A DNA stretch of 64,000 nucleotides. Source: an uncultured Granulosicoccaceae bacterium. Its GTDB lineage: Bacteria > Pseudomonadota > Gammaproteobacteria > Granulosicoccales > Granulosicoccaceae. Every line of letters starts with the position of its first letter. Positions within the stretch are counted from its first letter, which is position 1. The position numbers were made by a program, and so were the translations under genes. Positions 1-52,032 of the stretch are shown here, piece after piece. The stretch spans positions 1-64,000 of the forward strand of contig CAKZUP010000104.1 in the NCBI GenBank assembly GCA_937922945.1, read 5' to 3'. The notes under the pieces were generated by a model, which did no database searches, was not told the origin of the DNA, and saw only the letters and a program-made list of their open reading frames with translations.

Positions 1-1
1 T

Positions 2-118
2 ATTCCTGTTAGACCCAATCCGAATAAACACCCTGCATTAGCTCAACAACCACAGATTAACGTCCCTTTATGGAGGGACTCAAGCAACACGCATTTTAAC
101 AACAGAAACACTGGATAA
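2..118 (+). CDS. C-terminal fragment of an unknown protein (cut by window edge)
   Basis: An open frame runs from the first bases of the window for 38 codons to a TAA at 116-118. The peptide is rich in Asn, Pro and Gln and ends in ...NNRNTG. No domain can be recognised. The open frame is short enough to occur by chance, so this is only a possible 3' end of a gene lying to the left, perhaps in the same operon as the sulfotransferase-like gene that follows about 100 bases later. Confidence 0.35.
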   Translation: MPVRPNPNKHPALAQQPQINVPLWRDSSNTHFNNRNTG

Positions 119-216
119 CCATTGATACAATCAAGCAATATTCGAATCTTTACCTATGGCAGGTTAATTGCTTCGACTTGGTTTTAGAACCGTTTGTCGC
201 AGCAAGGATAAATCCG

Positions 217-1098
217 ATGGTGGTGATTATAGTAGGCATAAATCGTGGTGGTACGTCTGCTATTACGGCTTCACTTCACAGCCTGTGCATTCCTCTCGGG
301 GATAAGGCAAAACCACCGATTTTCGAGGACGATGTTCTGGCCGAGCTATTCAGGAGAAAAGACTGGTCTCAATTTAAGCGTGTCGCGGAAAAATACGATA
401 AACAACACGGTTTGTGGGCGTGGAAACTCCCAGATTCGATTAATATGCTAAATCGAGTTGATAAGTTGTTCAGTGATAAGAAATATATATTCGTTTTCCG
501 TGATTTAGTTGCTGTAGCCAATAGAAAAGAGGACACCCTGGGTCAAGACAAGAGTATCACCATGGCTCGCGATATTAAACGATACAGTAAAGCGATCAAG
601 CACTATGTCAAACACCCTGACTCATCCATGCTGGTTTCCTACGAAAAACTATTGACCGACACAGAATCATATGCCGTCCAATTGCTGACTTTTCTCGGAA
701 TGGATATAACAGACGAGAACAAGCAGGCCATCGCTAGCTCAATATCAATTAGTCCGGCGGAATACTCCGACTGGGCTGATAACTCGCGTCACGTTCGAGA
801 ACTTGCGATGCAAAAAATGCAAGGACATCTTGATATAGTTGATGGCAAACAGGCTGCCGGATGGGTATTAAATTCTGACAATGATCACCCGTTAGAAGTA
901 AGCTTGCAAATTGAAGGCAAAGTCGCGCAAACAACCATTGCAGATGACTACAGGAAAGATCTGATTGAAGCTGGTCTATCGGTCCACGGTAGGCATGGGT
1001 TTAAATTCGACTTGCCAGCTGATGTAGGTAAAAACACTAGAATCTCGGTAATAGACTCTGCCAGTGGTGTAGTAGTACCGCCAGTGCATATCGTTTAG
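217..1098 (+). CDS. Sulfotransferase-like P-loop protein with a C-terminal accessory domain
   Basis: About 293 residues. The N-terminus carries a P-loop-like PAPS-binding motif (VGINRGGTSAIT), followed by a segment with KYIFVFRD, comparable to the sulfotransferase 3'-phosphosulfate region, and SYEKLL, which fits the fold of bacterial sulfotransferases. Residues from about 205 on form a second domain with GWVLN and HGFKFDLP motifs; this type of module is found attached to glycosyltransferases and sulfotransferases of surface polysaccharide loci. The open frame begins at a TTG at 178, but the ATG at 217 is preferred because AAGGA lies 8 bases upstream and the P-loop follows immediately. It probably modifies a surface glycan or lipid; the substrate cannot be inferred. 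No polysaccharide genes are visible to its right. Confidence 0.7.
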   Translation: MVVIIVGINRGGTSAITASLHSLCIPLGDKAKPPIFEDDVLAELFRRKDWSQFKRVAEKYDKQHGLWAWKLPDSINMLNRVDKLFSDKKYIFVFRDLVAVANRKEDTLGQDKSITMARDIKRYSKAIKHYVKHPDSSMLVSYEKLLTDTESYAVQLLTFLGMDITDENKQAIASSISISPAEYSDWADNSRHVRELAMQKMQGHLDIVDGKQAAGWVLNSDNDHPLEVSLQIEGKVAQTTIADDYRKDLIEAGLSVHGRHGFKFDLPADVGKNTRISVIDSASGVVVPPVHIV

Positions 1099-1122
1099 CC
1101 GCTAACGTCGGCTTCTAGGTTT

Positions 1123-1350
1123 TTATTCGCCTATAGTCTCAGTCGAATGCCTTGATAGTTCTTCAAAAGACTGAAGCCACGTTTTCTTAGTTTCGGGGAT
1201 ACTTTTCTTTACTGGTTCGTTAAAGCCAGAAACGATAGTGTCAATATCAAATGTAAATCCCCAAGAAATGCTGGTTGAAAACTCCCCAATTTGAGGCTTT
1301 TCGCGGGTTTTCGGGCTCCGCTGATACGGCAATTTTATTTGTTCTGCCAC
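1123..1350 (-). CDS. Possible small protein of unknown function
   Basis: 75 codons starting with GTG, converging on the sulfotransferase-like gene. The product is hydrophilic with mixed composition (GFTFDIDTIVSGF in the middle) and has no signal peptide or recognisable domain. An AGAG lies just upstream of the GTG but is too close to be a good ribosome site. It may be a real lineage-specific gene or chance; nothing else explains these bases. Confidence 0.3.
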   Translation of the reverse strand: MAEQIKLPYQRSPKTREKPQIGEFSTSISWGFTFDIDTIVSGFNEPVKKSIPETKKTWLQSFEELSRHSTETIGE

Positions 1351-1654
1351 TCTCTACAACCACCAAGGACGCTCTCGGCTACAGCCAGCTAACGCTATAG
1401 GCCGTTCTTCAGCAATATATCCCAATTTTCTGTGATTCTGATCACGTCGTTCTGCTTATTCCAGCGGGTTTACAGAAACGTATATTTCCCGCAAATCGCC
1501 GGCAAAGGTGGTACCCGATACTGTTTCACATGGAGACGCACTTAAGCGCATTCAACGACCAGATCGACTTGAGATACACGAGATCGAAAGAACAAGATAC
1601 ACATATTAATTAACTAAATACACATTCACACTAAATCGAAAAGGATACATACTT
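1351..1654. other. Intergenic region upstream of the BON gene pair
   Basis: 304 bases without a convincing gene. It contains a near-consensus CRP/Vfr-type palindrome at 1431-1446 and a TATATT at 1481-1486 that could serve as a -10 element, although its -35 partner is poor. The last 70 bases are AT-rich and end in AAAAGGA, a Shine-Dalgarno site before the first BON gene. It most likely holds the promoter and a long leader of the BON pair. Confidence 0.5.
1431..1446 (+). promoter_or_regulatory. Candidate CRP/Vfr binding site
   Basis: TGTGATTCTGATCACG matches the consensus TGTGA-N6-TCACA in nine of ten defined positions. It lies about 210 bases before the first BON gene and on no coding strand. 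A cAMP-receptor type regulator could act here, but no promoter at a canonical distance is obvious. Confidence 0.45.
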
Positions 1655-1927
1655 ATGAAAACTCCAATCAAAACTTTTGCTGCTGCTATCGCTCTAAGTG
1701 CTCTTGTTGCAGGCCCGGCTTCTGCCATGGTTTCACAAGGTGATGTGACTCGCGACATTCTTTCAGCAGTAGGTTCCGGCTCTAACGTCATTGTGTCTGT
1801 TGATGGGGACACCGTGACTTTGCAAGGCTACTTCGCTGACTCAAGCGCCAAGAGCAAGGCACTACAAGCCGCACAGAATGCTGAAGGTATAGAGCGAGTG
1901 ATTAACCACGCTGTGAAGTCTAACTAA
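1655..1927 (+). CDS. Secreted BON-domain protein, copy 1
   Basis: 90 residues. Residues 1-24 are a Sec signal peptide (KTFAAAIALSALVAGPASA) cut before MVSQGD. The mature protein of about 66 residues is a single BON domain, with DVTRDILSAV, a central DGDTVTLQGYF strand pair and the closing EGIERVINH. BON domains occur in periplasmic and outer-membrane proteins such as OsmY and are thought to bind membranes or partner proteins. The start is supported by AAAAGGA 10 bases upstream. The gene is followed after 71 bases by an almost identical copy whose product differs only at residue 4 (Pro here, Ser there). Confidence 0.85.
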   Translation: MKTPIKTFAAAIALSALVAGPASAMVSQGDVTRDILSAVGSGSNVIVSVDGDTVTLQGYFADSSAKSKALQAAQNAEGIERVINHAVKSN

Positions 1928-1998
1928 TCGCGGCAGTACAACCAGACACTTTTTAAAACTTGAACATAAAACTAACTTAACTAACAGGCTATTTAATT

Positions 1999-2271
1999 AT
2001 GAAAACTTCAATCAAAACTTTCGCTGCTGCTATCGCTCTGAGTGCTCTTGTTGCAGGCCCGGCTTCTGCCATGGTTTCACAAGGTGATGTGACTCGCGAC
2101 ATTCTTTCAGCTGTAGGTTCCGGCTCTAACGTCATTGTCTCTGTTGATGGGGACACCGTGACTTTGCAAGGCTACTTCGCTGACTCGAGCGCCAAGAGCA
2201 AAGCACTACAAGCTGCACAGAATGCTGAAGGTATTGAGCGAGTGATTAACCACGCGGTTAAGTCCAACTAA
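1999..2271 (+). CDS. Secreted BON-domain protein, copy 2
   Basis: 90 residues, identical to the preceding gene product except Ser at residue 4. It has the same signal peptide and single BON domain. The coding sequences differ by a handful of mostly silent changes, whereas the sequences before the start and after the stop are unrelated; the similarity stops at the gene boundaries. This looks like a recent tandem duplication or ongoing gene conversion. It is the last gene before a strong terminator, so both copies are probably on one transcript. Confidence 0.85.
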   Translation: MKTSIKTFAAAIALSALVAGPASAMVSQGDVTRDILSAVGSGSNVIVSVDGDTVTLQGYFADSSAKSKALQAAQNAEGIERVINHAVKSN

Positions 2272-2310
2272 CTCGGATTGTATGAAAACATCAACAGCCA
2301 ATGCGCTTGA

Positions 2311-2343
2311 TTAAAAAAGACCGGCAATAGCCGGTCTTTTTGC
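2311..2343 (+). terminator. Rho-independent terminator after the BON pair
   Basis: A-rich tract followed by the hairpin AGACCGGC-AATA-GCCGGTCT and a T run. The flanking A and T tracts pair as well, so it could work in both directions. Confidence 0.9.
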
Positions 2344-2440
2344 ATTCGAACGTAAATAAACCCCAATCTGTTCCGGTCCAATCAACACCGAAACAGCACC
2401 CGTTCGTAATTTGCCAAAAGCCAGCTTCCACGAAAACTCA

Positions 2441-2500
2441 GCGCCAAGCAGGATCGAGCGCTAATGCAATTGCGCTCGACCATGGTCGGCGGTTCGATCC
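2441..2500. repeat. Degenerate tRNA-derived repeat, distal copy
   Basis: This copy contains a GGATCGA...TCGATCC foldback, an inner GAGCGC/GCGCTC stem and the perfect palindrome CGACCATGGTCG. It aligns with 2556-2621 at an offset of about 121 bases and, more loosely, with the 3' half of the tRNA-Ala gene. The anticodon arm is missing, so it cannot be a working tRNA. Confidence 0.65.
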
Positions 2501-2555
2501 AAGCGAAAGTTAATGAGGTGCTGAAATCCAACCCAAAAATTAAACACAATAAGGT

Positions 2556-2621
2556 TGGTGGAGCTAGGCGGGATAGAACGCCCAGTGCAACTGCGCTCGA
2601 CCATGGTCGGCAGTTCGATCC
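2556..2621. repeat. Degenerate tRNA-derived repeat, proximal copy
   Basis: On the minus strand it ends with the T-arm and acceptor 3' half of tRNA-Ala including CCA, with one change in the T loop. On its other side it carries a T-arm-like stretch in the opposite orientation (GTTCGATCC on the plus strand). The spacer up to the true tRNA repeats the spacer between the two degenerate copies (shared CAACCCAA and AAGGTT), giving a period near 120 bases. Confidence 0.65.
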
Positions 2622-2675
2622 GCGTAATCTAATGTAATGCTGAAGTTCAACCCAAGAATCAGACGTACGAAGGTT

Positions 2676-2751
2676 TGGTGGAGCTAGGCGGGATCGAACC
2701 GCCGACCTCTTGCGTGCCACGCAAGCGCTCTCCCAGCTGAGCTATAGCCCC
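2676..2751 (-). tRNA. alaW: tRNA-Ala (anticodon GGC)
   Basis: 76 bases including an encoded CCA end. The minus strand reads as a full cloverleaf: acceptor GGGGCTA/TAGCTCC with discriminator A, D-arm GCTC...GAGC, anticodon stem CTTGC/GCAAG with loop GTGGCAC (anticodon GGC), and T-arm GGCGG-TTCGATC-CCGCC. It lies 43 bases downstream of gltX on the same strand. tRNA-Ala(GGC) genes also sit next to gltX in Escherichia coli, so the pairing is an old one; the symbol is by that analogy. Confidence 0.97.
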
Positions 2752-2794
2752 ATCGAAGTGGAGCCGTGAAGATTAGTGTGCCGCGCCCGAGCTG

Positions 2795-4207
2795 TCAAGC
2801 TTCGGGAGCGTTTTCGCACACGCTAATGGCTGCCTTTATTCGCTGCAGCACAGCATCTTTGCCGATAAGCGCCAGAGTGCGGTCCATATCAGGCGAAGCG
2901 GTTCCACCGGTAATCGCCAAACGCAGGGGCTGGCCGAGCTTTCCGTAGCCGATTTCCAGCTGCTCAACCGTCTCGTTCATGGCGGCCTGTATCGACTCGG
3001 CGTCCCACGACGACAAGCCCTCAAACGCCTCACCAATCGCCACCAACACAGGAGCAGTAGCGACTTTAAACTGCTTTTTACTGGCCTTGGCATCGTACTC
3101 TGAAGGCGCTTTATAAAAATAACTCGCAGCGGCAGCCATCTCGACTAAAGTCTTCGAGCGCTCACGCAGCAAATCTGCAACATCACCCAGCTCAGGGCCA
3201 GCTGCAACATCAACACCTGTTGCCACAACATAAGGCTCAAGAGCCGCTGCCAATTCAGACTGGGGTGTGTTCTGTAGATAATGCTGACTAACCCAATCCA
3301 GTTTCTTGTTATCAAACACCGAACCCGAGCGATTAACCGCATCCAGCGAAAACAACGATGTCATTTCAGCCATGCTGAACAACTCCTGATCCTGATGCGA
3401 CCAACCCAGCCGTACAAGATAATTCAACAAAGCTTCAGGTTGATACCCGTCTTCCTGGTATTGCATAACGCTAACGGCTCCATGGCGTTTTGATAACCGC
3501 TTACCATCTTCACCCAGAATCATCGGTAAATGCGCGTATACAGGCAGCTCTGCACCAAGCGCTTGCAGAATATTAATTTGCCTTGGTGTGTTATTCACAT
3601 GATCATCACCGCGAATAACATGCGAAATACGCATATCCATATCATCCACCACCACCGTTAAGTTATACGTTGGCGTGCCATCGGAGCGCATAATAATCAG
3701 ATCATCAAGCTCGGTATTACTCACCACAATATCGCCTTTAACCGCATCTTTAATCACTACATCGCCATCGAGCGGGTTACGAAAACGCACCACCGGCTCC
3801 ACGCCTGCAGGTGGCGAGTCGGTTCTGTCTCGCCAGTAGCCGTTGTATCGAGGCTTTTGTTTATTCTTCATGGCCTCTTCACGCATGGCGTCGAGCTCTT
3901 CGCGGGAGCAATAACAATGGTAGGCATGGCCCGACTCAAGCAGCTGGGCCACCACTTCGCGATAGCGATCAAAGCGTTGAGTTTGGTAGAAAGGCCCTTC
4001 GTCGTAGTCCAGGCCAAGCCATTGCATGCCGTCAAGTATGGCTTGCACCGATTCCTCGGTTGAGCGCTCTCGGTCGGTGTCCTCAATTCGAAGCACAAAT
4101 TCACCACCGTGCTGGCGCGCGAATAGATAGCAAAATAGCGCTGTGCGAGCACCACCGATGTGTAAATAGCCCGTAGGGCTTGGAGCGAACCGGGTTCGAA
4201 CTGACAT
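2795..4207 (-). CDS. gltX: Glutamate--tRNA ligase
   Basis: 470 residues, usual for the bacterial enzyme. It charges tRNA-Glu with glutamate using ATP in the cytoplasm. The class I signatures are present: HIGG near residue 17 ([14 protein letters not shown]) and KRLSKRHGA, the KMSKS equivalent, near residue 240. The C-terminal anticodon-binding helical domain is complete. The open frame extends 78 codons further upstream, but the ATG at 4207 is chosen because homologues begin with [11 protein letters not shown] or similar; the extension overlaps the divergent phosphatase gene and resembles nothing. The tRNA-Ala gene follows on the same strand. Confidence 0.97.
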
Positions 4208-4295
4208 GAGCTGTTGTGGTTGTAGACTGACTCGCGGATTGTAGCAAAGCCCATCCGGTATACTGACAATTAGTTCGTCAAAGAAACACAATTCC

Positions 4296-5048
4296 ATGCC
4301 CGAAAACAGAGCTGAAGCGGTCCAAAAACCAACAAACTGGTTCTCGCGTGCAGCTACGGCCGTTGGCCATGTGCGAAAAATCAATGAAGATTCGTTTCTC
4401 GATGCCAGCGAGATTGGCCTGTGGGTCGTCGCCGATGGCATGGGCGGACACAGCCGTGGTGATCGTGCCAGTCAGGAAATCATTGCCCAGCTGCACAACT
4501 TCAAGCCCTCCAACTCCATCCGTGCCGATGTCGATAACATTATAGAAAGGCTGGAAAAGGCCAATACCTTTTGCCGCTTGCAACTCGACGGCAAAGTCAT
4601 GGGCAGCACGGTTGCGCTGCTCTACATACACAGGGGAATAGCACACGCCATTTGGGCAGGCGATAGCCGCTTGTATCGATTACGCGGCGGCAGCTTGCAA
4701 CAACTTACCGACGATCACAGCCTGGTTGGTGAGCTGGCCCGCTTGGGCGAACTCACTGAAGATGAGGCAGAGAACCACCCGTCTGCCAATGTGATTACCC
4801 GGGCAGTTGGCGTTAGCGATGATCTTGATTTACAAATGCGTCAGGTGGAACTGCAGCCGGGTGATCGGTTTTTATTGTGCAGCGACGGATTATTCAAAGA
4901 TGTGCAGCGCGGTGAAGTACAGGAGAATCTGGCCATGCCATCGCTTGAACAAGCACTTGATAAAATGATGAAGCTGGCGTTACGTCGCGGTGGCACCGAC
5001 AACGTAACGGCCATTGTAGTTCAACTCAGCACAGACTTTACCGTTTAA
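4296..5048 (+). CDS. PP2C-family serine/threonine phosphatase
   Basis: 250 residues forming one PP2C catalytic domain. All metal-binding motifs are visible: NEDSF near residue 30, ADGMGGH near residue 45, GSTV, the AGDSR strand, LTDDHS, CSDGL and the final GGTDNVT. It should remove phosphate from Ser/Thr proteins in the cytoplasm with Mn or Mg. It is transcribed away from gltX (88 bases between starts) and converges on clpB with 15 bases between stops. Relatives often pair with a Hanks-type kinase or a type VI secretion cluster; neither is in this window, so its substrate is unknown. Confidence 0.93.
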
Positions 5049-5063
5049 CGAAAGCTCACTCGC

Positions 5064-7676
5064 CTAATGCACACTCGCCGCACTAGGCACGAGTTCTTTA
5101 TCATCAAAAGCAAGCTTGCCATCGACGACGTTTACATAGACCTTTTCGCCAGGCTCAAACTTGCCCGAAAGAATTAACTGCGCCAGCGGGTTTTCCAGTT
5201 CCTGCTGAATGGCACGTTTTAACGGGCGCGCACCGTACACTGGATCGAAGCCTGCATCGCCGACAAAATCCAGCGCTTCATCGGTTATCACTAATTCAAG
5301 CGATCGTTCGGCCAACCGTTTGCTAAGCTGCTTCATTTGAATACCACAGATCATGCGGATGCTCTCGCGAGATAAAGGCCTGAACACCACAGACTCATCG
5401 ATACGGTTGATAAACTCCGGCCTGAAGTGTTGACCAACGATATCCATCACAGCATCTTTCATGGCACCGTAGTTATCGTTACCCGCTAGTTCCTGAATAA
5501 CGTGGCTGCCTAAGTTCGATGTCATCACTATCACCGTGTTACGAAAATCCACCGTGCGACCTTGACCATCGGTTAATCGCCCATCGTCGAGTACTTGCAA
5601 TAAAATATTGAATACATCTGAATGAGCCTTTTCGACTTCATCAAGCAAAATAACCGAATACGGTTTTCTGCGCACAGCCTCGGTTAAGTATCCGCCCTCT
5701 TCATAGCCAACATAGCCCGGAGGTGCACCAATTAGTCTTGCCACCGAGTGCTTTTCCATGAATTCAGACATATCCAAACGCACCATGGCATCGCTGCTTT
5801 CAAACATAAATGCGGCAAGCGTTTTGGTTAGCTCGGTTTTACCCACGCCTGTTGGCCCTAAAAACAGGAATGAACCAATGGGGCGTTTAGGATCGGACAA
5901 ACCCGCACGCGAGCGCCGAATAGCATCGGACACCGCTTCAACCGCTTCGCCCTGACCTACTACGTGTTTACTGAGTTCTGCTTCCATGCGCAAGAGCTTC
6001 TCTTTTTCGCCCTCAAGCATTTTGGTAACCGGAATCCCCGTCCACTTGGATACAACACTGGCAATTTCATCGCTGTTCACTTTATTGCGCAGCAATTGCA
6101 TTTCATCTTGATCAGCATCGTCTAATGCGCTTTCAAGTTTTTTCTCCAACTCAGGTATCTGACCGTATTGAAGCTCCGACATACGTGCCAAATCGCCTGC
6201 TCGTCTTGCGGTTTCAAATTCCAGGCGGACCCGTTCCAGTTCTTCCTTAACGCTGCTTGCACCCTGAACCGATGCTTTCTCCGCATTCCAGATTTCTTCT
6301 AAGTCGGCATACTCTTTTTCAACACCAGCGATATCATCATCCAGATCGGATAAGCGCCGCTTCGATGCATCGTCAGTTTCTTTCGCTAATGCTTCGCGTT
6401 CAATTTTAAGTTGTATGACCCTGCGTTCCAGCTTATCCAGCTCTTCGGGTTTGGAATCGATTTCCATACGAATATGAGACGCAGCCTCGTCGATAAGATC
6501 AATGGCTTTGTCGGGCAGTTGTCGATCACTAATGTAGCGATGCGATAATGTTGCCGCTGCAACAATAGCCGGGTCGGTAATTTCAACGCCATGGTGCACT
6601 TCGTATTTTTCTTTTAAGCCACGCAGAATGGCGATGGTGTCTTCCACGCTGGGCTCATCAACCAGAATTTTCTGGAACCGACGCTCTAATGCCGCATCCT
6701 TTTCCACGTATTGTCGGTATTCATCGAGTGTTGTCGCACCAATACAATGCAACTCACCGCGCGCTAACGCAGGTTTTAGCATGTTGCCGGCATCCATTGA
6801 ACCTTCAGCTTTACCGGCACCCACCATGGTATGTAACTCATCGATGAACAGAATCACCTGGCCTTCCTGCTTGGCCAGATCGTTTAATACCGCTTTTAAT
6901 CGCTCTTCAAAATCGCCACGGAATTTTGCACCCGCTATCAACGAACCCATATCGAGTGAGAGCACTCGTTTGTTTTTAACACCTTCGGGCACTTCGCCAT
7001 CGACGATACGCTGAGCAAGCCCTTCAACCAACGCCGTTTTACCAACGCCAGGTTCACCAATTATCACTGGGTTATTTTTACGGCGGCGTTGCAACACCTG
7101 GATAGCACGACGAATTTCATCATCGCGACCAATAACCGGGTCGATCTTGCCTTGCTCTGCCCGCTCAGTTAAATCGATGGTGTATTTTTCCAATGCCTTA
7201 CGCTGGTCTTCAGCGTTGGGGTCGTTCACCGGCTGATCACCATGCACATCTTTAATGGTCTTTTCAACGGCCTCAAGATTAGCGCCGTTTTCAATCATTA
7301 ATTTGGCCAATGAATTCTTTTTATCATCGAGCGCGGCAGTAACAAACACTTCAGAAGAAATATATTGATCACCACGTTGTTGCGATCGCTTGTCCGTCAG
7401 GTTTAGCAAGCGGTTCAATTCGTTCGATACGTGCAACTGGCCACCACTACCAGAGACTTGTGCCATGTTGTCGAGTAGCGTATCAATGCCGGCGCGCAAG
7501 CCATTCACGTTCACACCAGATTGTGCGAGTAGCGGACGCACACCGCTGCCATCCTGATCAAGAAAGGCTGCCATTAAATGCGTTGGCTCAATAAACTGAT
7601 GATCGCGCCCCAGAGCCATCGACTGCGCTTCTTGTAAACCCAGCTGAAATTTGCTGGTTAGTTTATCCATTCTCAT
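5064..7676 (-). CDS. clpB: ATP-dependent chaperone ClpB
   Basis: 870 residues. ClpB is a hexameric AAA+ disaggregase that works with DnaK to rescue aggregated proteins after heat shock. In order: the Clp N-domain (residues 1-145, [13 protein letters not shown]), first ATPase with Walker A GEPGVGKT near 205, the long coiled-coil M-domain (about 400-530), second ATPase with GPTGVGKT near 610, and the C-terminal D2-small domain. The start at 7676 gives [10 protein letters not shown], matching homologues, with AAGAGGA upstream; the frame is open 12 codons further. It is expected to be heat-induced, but I see no clear sigma-32 promoter in the 235 bases upstream. Confidence 0.97.
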
Positions 7677-51514: not shown

Positions 51515-51675
51515 CCTGTAACGCCATGTTATTCGCTGTTTATCGTCTCGAACAGCAATAACAGCGATTCTTAACCTTTAGTCTAGCCAGACGGGAGTTG
51601 AAGAAATCAAGAAAGGAGAATCGGCATAACCGATTGGCCGCCATCAGCGGCAGATGTGAGCAACCTGAGAGAAAA

Positions 51676-52032
<357 letters not shown>

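Follow-up and report, generated by a model that had tools for sequence, protein, structure and literature searches.

A two-unit tandem array behind tRNA-Ala(GGC) in a Granulosicoccaceae genome and its proposed reading as a tRNA 3'-trailer repeat

The tRNA-Ala(GGC) gene in the 64,000-nt stretch of Granulosicoccaceae DNA analysed here (the window) is followed on the minus strand by two tandem units of about 120 nt (2675-2556, then 2555-2438). Our preferred explanation, held with moderate confidence, is that they form an array of tRNA 3'-trailer repeats that would be transcribed together with the tRNA, trimmed, and gained and lost by recombination. This trailer-RNA reading is the most likely one; its main rival is a neutral by-product of recombination. 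The same layout is found after other tRNA genes, in near and in distant bacteria, and the array is therefore not a dying tRNA copy but a recurring, poorly understood attachment to tRNA genes. The units are a divergent variant of a kind already known from the Escherichia coli tyrT repeats and their RtT RNA, whose layout they share.

ARAGORN placed a single tRNA-Ala(GGC) gene at 2676-2751 on the minus strand (Rfam tRNA, 62.7 bits), so that downstream of it means lower coordinates. Upstream, on the same strand, lies gltX (2795-4201; assigned from the open reading frame and its relatives), the closest relative of which is the gltX of a Granulosicoccus MAG (75%). In brief, each unit starts with a spacer of 54-55 nt, followed by an inverted T-arm, the 12-nt palindrome CGACCATGGTCG and a small hairpin; tRNA sequence then takes over, with the junction within the T-loop in each unit. 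Unit 1 comprises a 54-nt spacer (2622-2675), the inverted T-arm copy (2605-2621), the palindrome or hairpin B (2598-2609), the hairpin module CAGTTGCACTG (2583-2593) and a copy of the last 22 nt of the tRNA, up to CCA (2556-2577; direct repeat D2). Unit 2 has a 55-nt spacer (2501-2555), the inverted T-arm copy (2484-2500), the palindrome (2477-2488) and the hairpin CAATTGCATT with a degenerate tRNA tail (2438-2472). Apart from the palindromes, which have no strand, all these parts were read on the minus strand. Past the array is a symmetric, terminator-like palindrome with a T run (2314-2341; inverted repeat I3), which would leave the array flanked by the tRNA and a possible terminator. At this palindrome the terminator scan gave no hit.

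Direct repeats were found between 2465-2500 and 2586-2621 (94%) and between 2555-2579 and 2675-2699 (96%). The inverted T-arm copy is 17 nt long and is complementary to the T-arm stretch GGTCGGCGGTTCGATCC at 94% in unit 1 (inverted repeat I2) and 100% in unit 2 (I1), reading GGATCGAAC[T/C]GCCGACC in both. By simple 4^-17 arithmetic, about 3e-8 occurrences of a given 17-mer would be expected in ~550 nt, and none of 200 shuffles of the downstream DNA contained any copy of the 22-nt tRNA tail at five or fewer mismatches. The T-arm-like stretch in opposite orientation and the palindrome, which occurs twice, had both been described in a first-pass annotation and are borne out. That annotation also had the degenerate copies keep the acceptor, which holds for unit 1 (1 mismatch in 22) but not for unit 2, where no copy of the last 22 nt lies within five mismatches and the core ends in GCGCTGA, not CCACCA. 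The anticodon arm is indeed absent from the units, but its place is taken by another hairpin (CAGTTGCACTG or CAATTGCATT). The spacers of the two units are similar by eye, as had been proposed, but the repeat search did not group them into a family.

Plain decay of tandem tRNA-Ala genes, one of the origins first suggested, would account for the tRNA-Ala sequence at the end of the units. In 23 gltX loci, exact copies of the tRNA-Glu tail at 100-170 nt do look like ordinary tandem tRNA genes, a judgement made collectively and not locus by locus. In the window array, however, ARAGORN and Rfam found only the one tRNA and no second tRNA gene, and by eye no unit contains the acceptor 5' strand or the tRNA 5' half. 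The order of inverted T-arm and hairpins is the same across many species and behind other tRNAs. Decay was expected to leave a sequence occurring nowhere else and varying freely between strains, which is not what we found. The recurrence of the layout refutes decay as the whole story, and we consider it barely credible as an explanation. We also considered that the core might be a shortened tRNA keeping the anticodon arm (GTGGCAC in G020), and dropped this since the same hairpin is present in a tRNA-Leu array. An integron-like or CRISPR-like array was considered from anatomy alone.

A dispersed tRNA-derived repeat, the other suggestion of the first-pass annotation, was likewise given up, as its own genome contains no other copy of the array. 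Searching the whole genome with the array gave only its own locus below E 0.3, including the match of its inverted T-arm to the tRNA; three other places matched at E 0.36-0.67. The sequence CARYTGCRYTGCGCG has three exact places in this genome (G000), two in a tRNA-Leu array and one elsewhere in sequence that is not unit-like.

We examined the tRNA-Ala(GGC) loci of 36 family genomes. In 12 of them the tRNA tail is repeated downstream (G000, G005, G007, G009, G012, G013, G020, G021, G023, G024, G025 and G028), or in 13 genomes if G011 is counted, where the unit lies past an island and on another contig. In four genomes the trailer is shorter than 100 nt and was not judged (G001, G015, G019, G029); two further tRNA-Ala loci of G019 had no tail copy listed. 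Six g1 genomes with full trailers have none (G002, G003, G006, G008, G017, G018), which counts against the trailer-RNA reading. Presence and unit number differ among close relatives. Copy numbers are minimum values, as in several cases the contig breaks off within the array or next to it. G023, a closed genome, had the unit only at tRNA-Ala among the contexts scanned (32 plus 10, partly overlapping).

G021 and G025 fall in one supported clade of four in a gltX tree of 21 rows (in the remaining genomes gltX was not found beside the tRNA). Their cores can be aligned almost throughout, while 33 of 55 spacer positions are alike against a shuffled mean of 30.9 and maximum of 36, which is chance level. 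The core is thus conserved over the spacer in this species pair. The two tRNAs differ by a swapped T-stem pair, and matching changes are present in the inverted copy, its hairpin partner and the tail copy. These observations, and the fact that related species and other tRNA loci show the parts in this order too, support an organised element built from tRNA pieces, as had first been proposed, and argue for the trailer-RNA reading.

The main rival holds that tandem duplication at tRNA tails and foldback copying (template switching) between inverted T-arm copies produce and homogenise the units with nothing selected and no RNA function. We regard this as possible but clearly less probable. It is favoured by the variable presence and unit number among close relatives and E. 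coli strains, by tRNA-derived parts that change together with the tRNA, and by G006, where the DNA right after the tRNA CCA resembles the DNA after the unit of G007 (25 of 29 aligned letters). It accounts less well for non-tRNA parts of the core that are conserved where spacers are not, and for a layout that recurs at different tRNAs in distant families.

Tail copies resemble the identity blocks of att sites, and a third explanation is that they are footprints of, or decoys for, integrases that cross over in the T-loop. In G010 a tyrosine integrase gene (L120 1719-2693, G010:C121; Pfam Phage_integrase and Arm-DNA-bind_3) directly follows tRNA-Ala(GGC), which marks this tRNA as a site of integration in the genus, and in G011 an island lies between tRNA and unit. 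Island attachment-site remnants share with the window units the repeat of a tRNA 3' end, but the latter are gene-free, about 0.1 kb long, and carry an inverted T-arm and a conserved hairpin core. No integrase was noticed among the open reading frames at 1-6000 of the window (by eye, with Pfam run on four proteins). No integrase or element genes lie between the tail copies, which at 120 nt apart leave room for the unit only. We therefore consider this explanation improbable. The end of the G011 island that carries the tRNA-Ala tail and the displaced unit adjoins a locus (L156; G011:C266:12600-14394, reverse) with repeats of about 35 nt and unlike spacers, resembling a CRISPR array.

The window's genome has 28 tRNA matches, and one further array was found among them, after tRNA-Leu(CAG) (L184, G000:C192:1-1638, positions 142-350). 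Its two units have a variable-arm copy and the hairpin CAGTTGCACTGCGC, and the hairpin CAGTTGCACTG is common to the Leu and Ala arrays of this genome. The tRNA-Leu(CAG) gene was found in 41 of 48 family genomes, and reading 30 loci gave Leu arrays in G013, G020, G027 and G035 and a degenerate one in G032. The order in Leu units is a variable-arm copy, which by eye follows the variable arm of the host, then a hairpin and the tail.

A covariance model (R1) was built from nine Ala cores; it matches unit 2 of the window at 2438-2500 with 62.3 bits, unit 2 being among its training sequences. R1 also matched a unit after tRNA-Phe in G006 and one in G027 after a tRNA end at a contig edge that is Phe by eye. 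Over 17 nt, the inverted arm of the G006 Phe unit is a slightly better fit to Ala than to Phe, and an identical sequence, GAACTAGGCGTCCCC, is shared by the Phe-end unit of G027 and the tRNA-Ala unit of G028. Against 369 genomes of the class, most R1 matches were 33-nt tRNA-Ala tails themselves and were discarded; a match in G182 (L350) was judged not to be a unit. Units at tRNA-Ala ends in other families were found in three genomes, G098 (at least five units), G107 and G236. In the latter two the spacers read by eye as intrinsic terminators. A tRNA-Glu(TTC) array in the Gammaproteobacteria isolate Ww184 (L098 6552-7200) has units that begin with an intrinsic-terminator-like spacer and end with the tRNA-Glu tail. 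Where such spacers precede the core (L098, G107 and G236, by eye), the cores would be little transcribed, which speaks against the trailer-RNA reading and for the by-product. Outside one species group the inverted arm is degenerate, and tRNA-Val(TAC) fits the arms of Ala units nearly as well, which also weakens the trailer-RNA reading.

The closest known system is the 178-bp tyrT repeat of E. coli with its RtT (RttR) RNA (RF00391). Both arrays consist of tandem units directly 3' of a tRNA and on its strand, with a spacer, an inverted T-arm ahead of internal hairpins and a host tRNA tail to CCA, the latter clear in unit 1 (1/22 mismatch) and not in unit 2 of the window. At the tyrT-tyrV locus of E. 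coli K-12 the units carry both the inverted T-arm and the host tail, and this shared layout argues for the trailer-RNA reading. Spacers change faster than cores in both systems. In E. coli this was judged by eye from the RtT unit that separates tyrT from tyrV (L281 1564-1695), whose core is similar to, and whose spacer is unlike, those of the three units after tyrV. The window units differ in being shorter (~120 against 178 nt), in their internal block, and in the hosts known for Granulosicoccaceae units (Ala, Leu, Phe). RF00391 had no match in the window at the gathering score, and neither the Ala nor the Leu array gave one up to E 10. This counts against the trailer-RNA reading, and since the RtT model failed, we do not file the Granulosicoccaceae arrays as RtT members, though they are RtT-like in anatomy.

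RtT itself is not specific to tyrT. RF00391 matched in 80 of 369 class genomes, 23 of them over the cut-off and often in tandem. We examined 61 matches, namely 20 loci and a further 41 rows picked going down the list, for the most part one from each array. A tRNA of one of ten kinds lies upstream on the same strand in 51 of them; in the other 10 the stretch has no tRNA. The hosts are Gln(TTG) (11), Tyr (9), Gln(CTG) (8), Ser(GCT) (7), Ser(GGA) (6), Ser(CGA) (4), Ser(TGA) (3) and one each of Glu, Arg(CCT) and Arg(CCG); in 38 of the 51 the unit tail is strictly closest to the host tRNA. A near match to an RtT unit was found in 4655 of 5426 E. coli genomes, at 1 to 9 places each. Using the 43 of 51 hosted units defined by tail match or core length, we saw no homogenisation of RtT cores within a genome across hosts, median identity being 0.67 in all three classes (six same-genome pairs). 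Host specificity of the inverted arm was weak: the T-stem/acceptor strand was strictly best for the host in 19 of 43 units (6 ties), and V+T5+loop in 8 of 43 (8 ties). PMC4986893 describes RtT RNAs of Actinobacillus, seen on Northern blots, that lie near tRNA genes for Asn and Lys, mentions RtT at "many other tRNA operons", and cites an effect on the stringent response; PMC8092127 reports RtT as upregulated in the cold in Thioalkalivibrio. Apart from PMC4986893, our literature search, for which Granulosicoccus was not itself a query, listed no paper on arrays in this genus or on RtT across tRNA types.

Folding the sequence as RNA, as the first-pass annotation proposed, gave mixed results. In nine Ala cores the named structure is 86.6% paired, with covariation of 0.107 against 0.043 in shuffled alignments. 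Helix 2, the palindrome, is paired throughout (100%, 9/9 sequences) and shows one both-sides change. Helix 1, formed by the inverted T-arm and the T-loop copy, has 83.5% pairing and no such change, and helix 3 has 66.7% pairing. The pairing and covariation, taken with the Actinobacillus blots, support the trailer-RNA reading. Against it, single units folded at p<=0.01 in no more than 5 of 15 Ala cores and in none of 7 Leu cores, helix 1 lacks a both-sides change, and the inverted T-arm pairs with the real T-arm when tRNA and array are folded as one strand, which in this model would be a possible interference. Hairpins are many by eye in the spacers, but as a group, the window's unit 1 spacer included, their z-scores do not differ from those of 55 control trailers (Mann-Whitney p 0.60). 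This too counts against the trailer-RNA reading, and spacer hairpins were dropped as a feature.

According to the trailer-RNA reading, the window array would be transcribed together with its tRNA, ordinary tRNA 3' processing would trim each CCA end, and the units would be released as short structured RNAs in the manner reported for RtT of E. coli. The inverted T-arm may pair with the T-loop copy of its own unit, closing it, and such pairing would keep it off the T-arm of the real tRNA. Recombination between repeated tRNA tails would change the unit number. A role in amino-acid limitation is suggested only by analogy with what is reported for RtT. The recurrence of tails or units at 12/36 Ala loci, at Leu and Phe, at Ala in other families and behind tRNAs in 51/61 RtT matches fits this reading. 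tRNA 3' trailers can act as small RNAs; 3'ETS-leuZ is cut from the 3' end of a tRNA transcript, but is not known to be repeated or built from tRNA pieces.

More speculatively, and with considerable doubt, RtT and the Granulosicoccaceae arrays may be one broad class of mini-elements that colonise tRNA genes through hairpin modules inserted in the T-loop of a duplicated tail. Their ends would be rewritten to match the host tRNA and internal modules would pass between hosts, as the sharing of GAACTAGGCGTCCCC (Phe end and Ala) and CAGTTGCACTG (Leu and Ala) suggests. With these arrays, a peculiarity of a single E. coli locus is extended to further tRNA hosts and to a family missed by the Rfam model; the common feature is the layout of inverted T-arm, hairpins and host tRNA tail. 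They also give a search rule, a host tail copy with an inverted T-arm some 40-70 nt after CCA, and make it testable whether such units function as RNAs cut out of tRNA transcripts or arise by recombination and follow the tRNA sequence.

Elsewhere in the window, two nearly identical 90-aa BON-domain proteins are encoded in tandem (1655-1927 and 1999-2271), a pair recently duplicated together with its upstream DNA. Rfam placed a bacterial RNase P RNA of class A at 51673-52032 on the minus strand.
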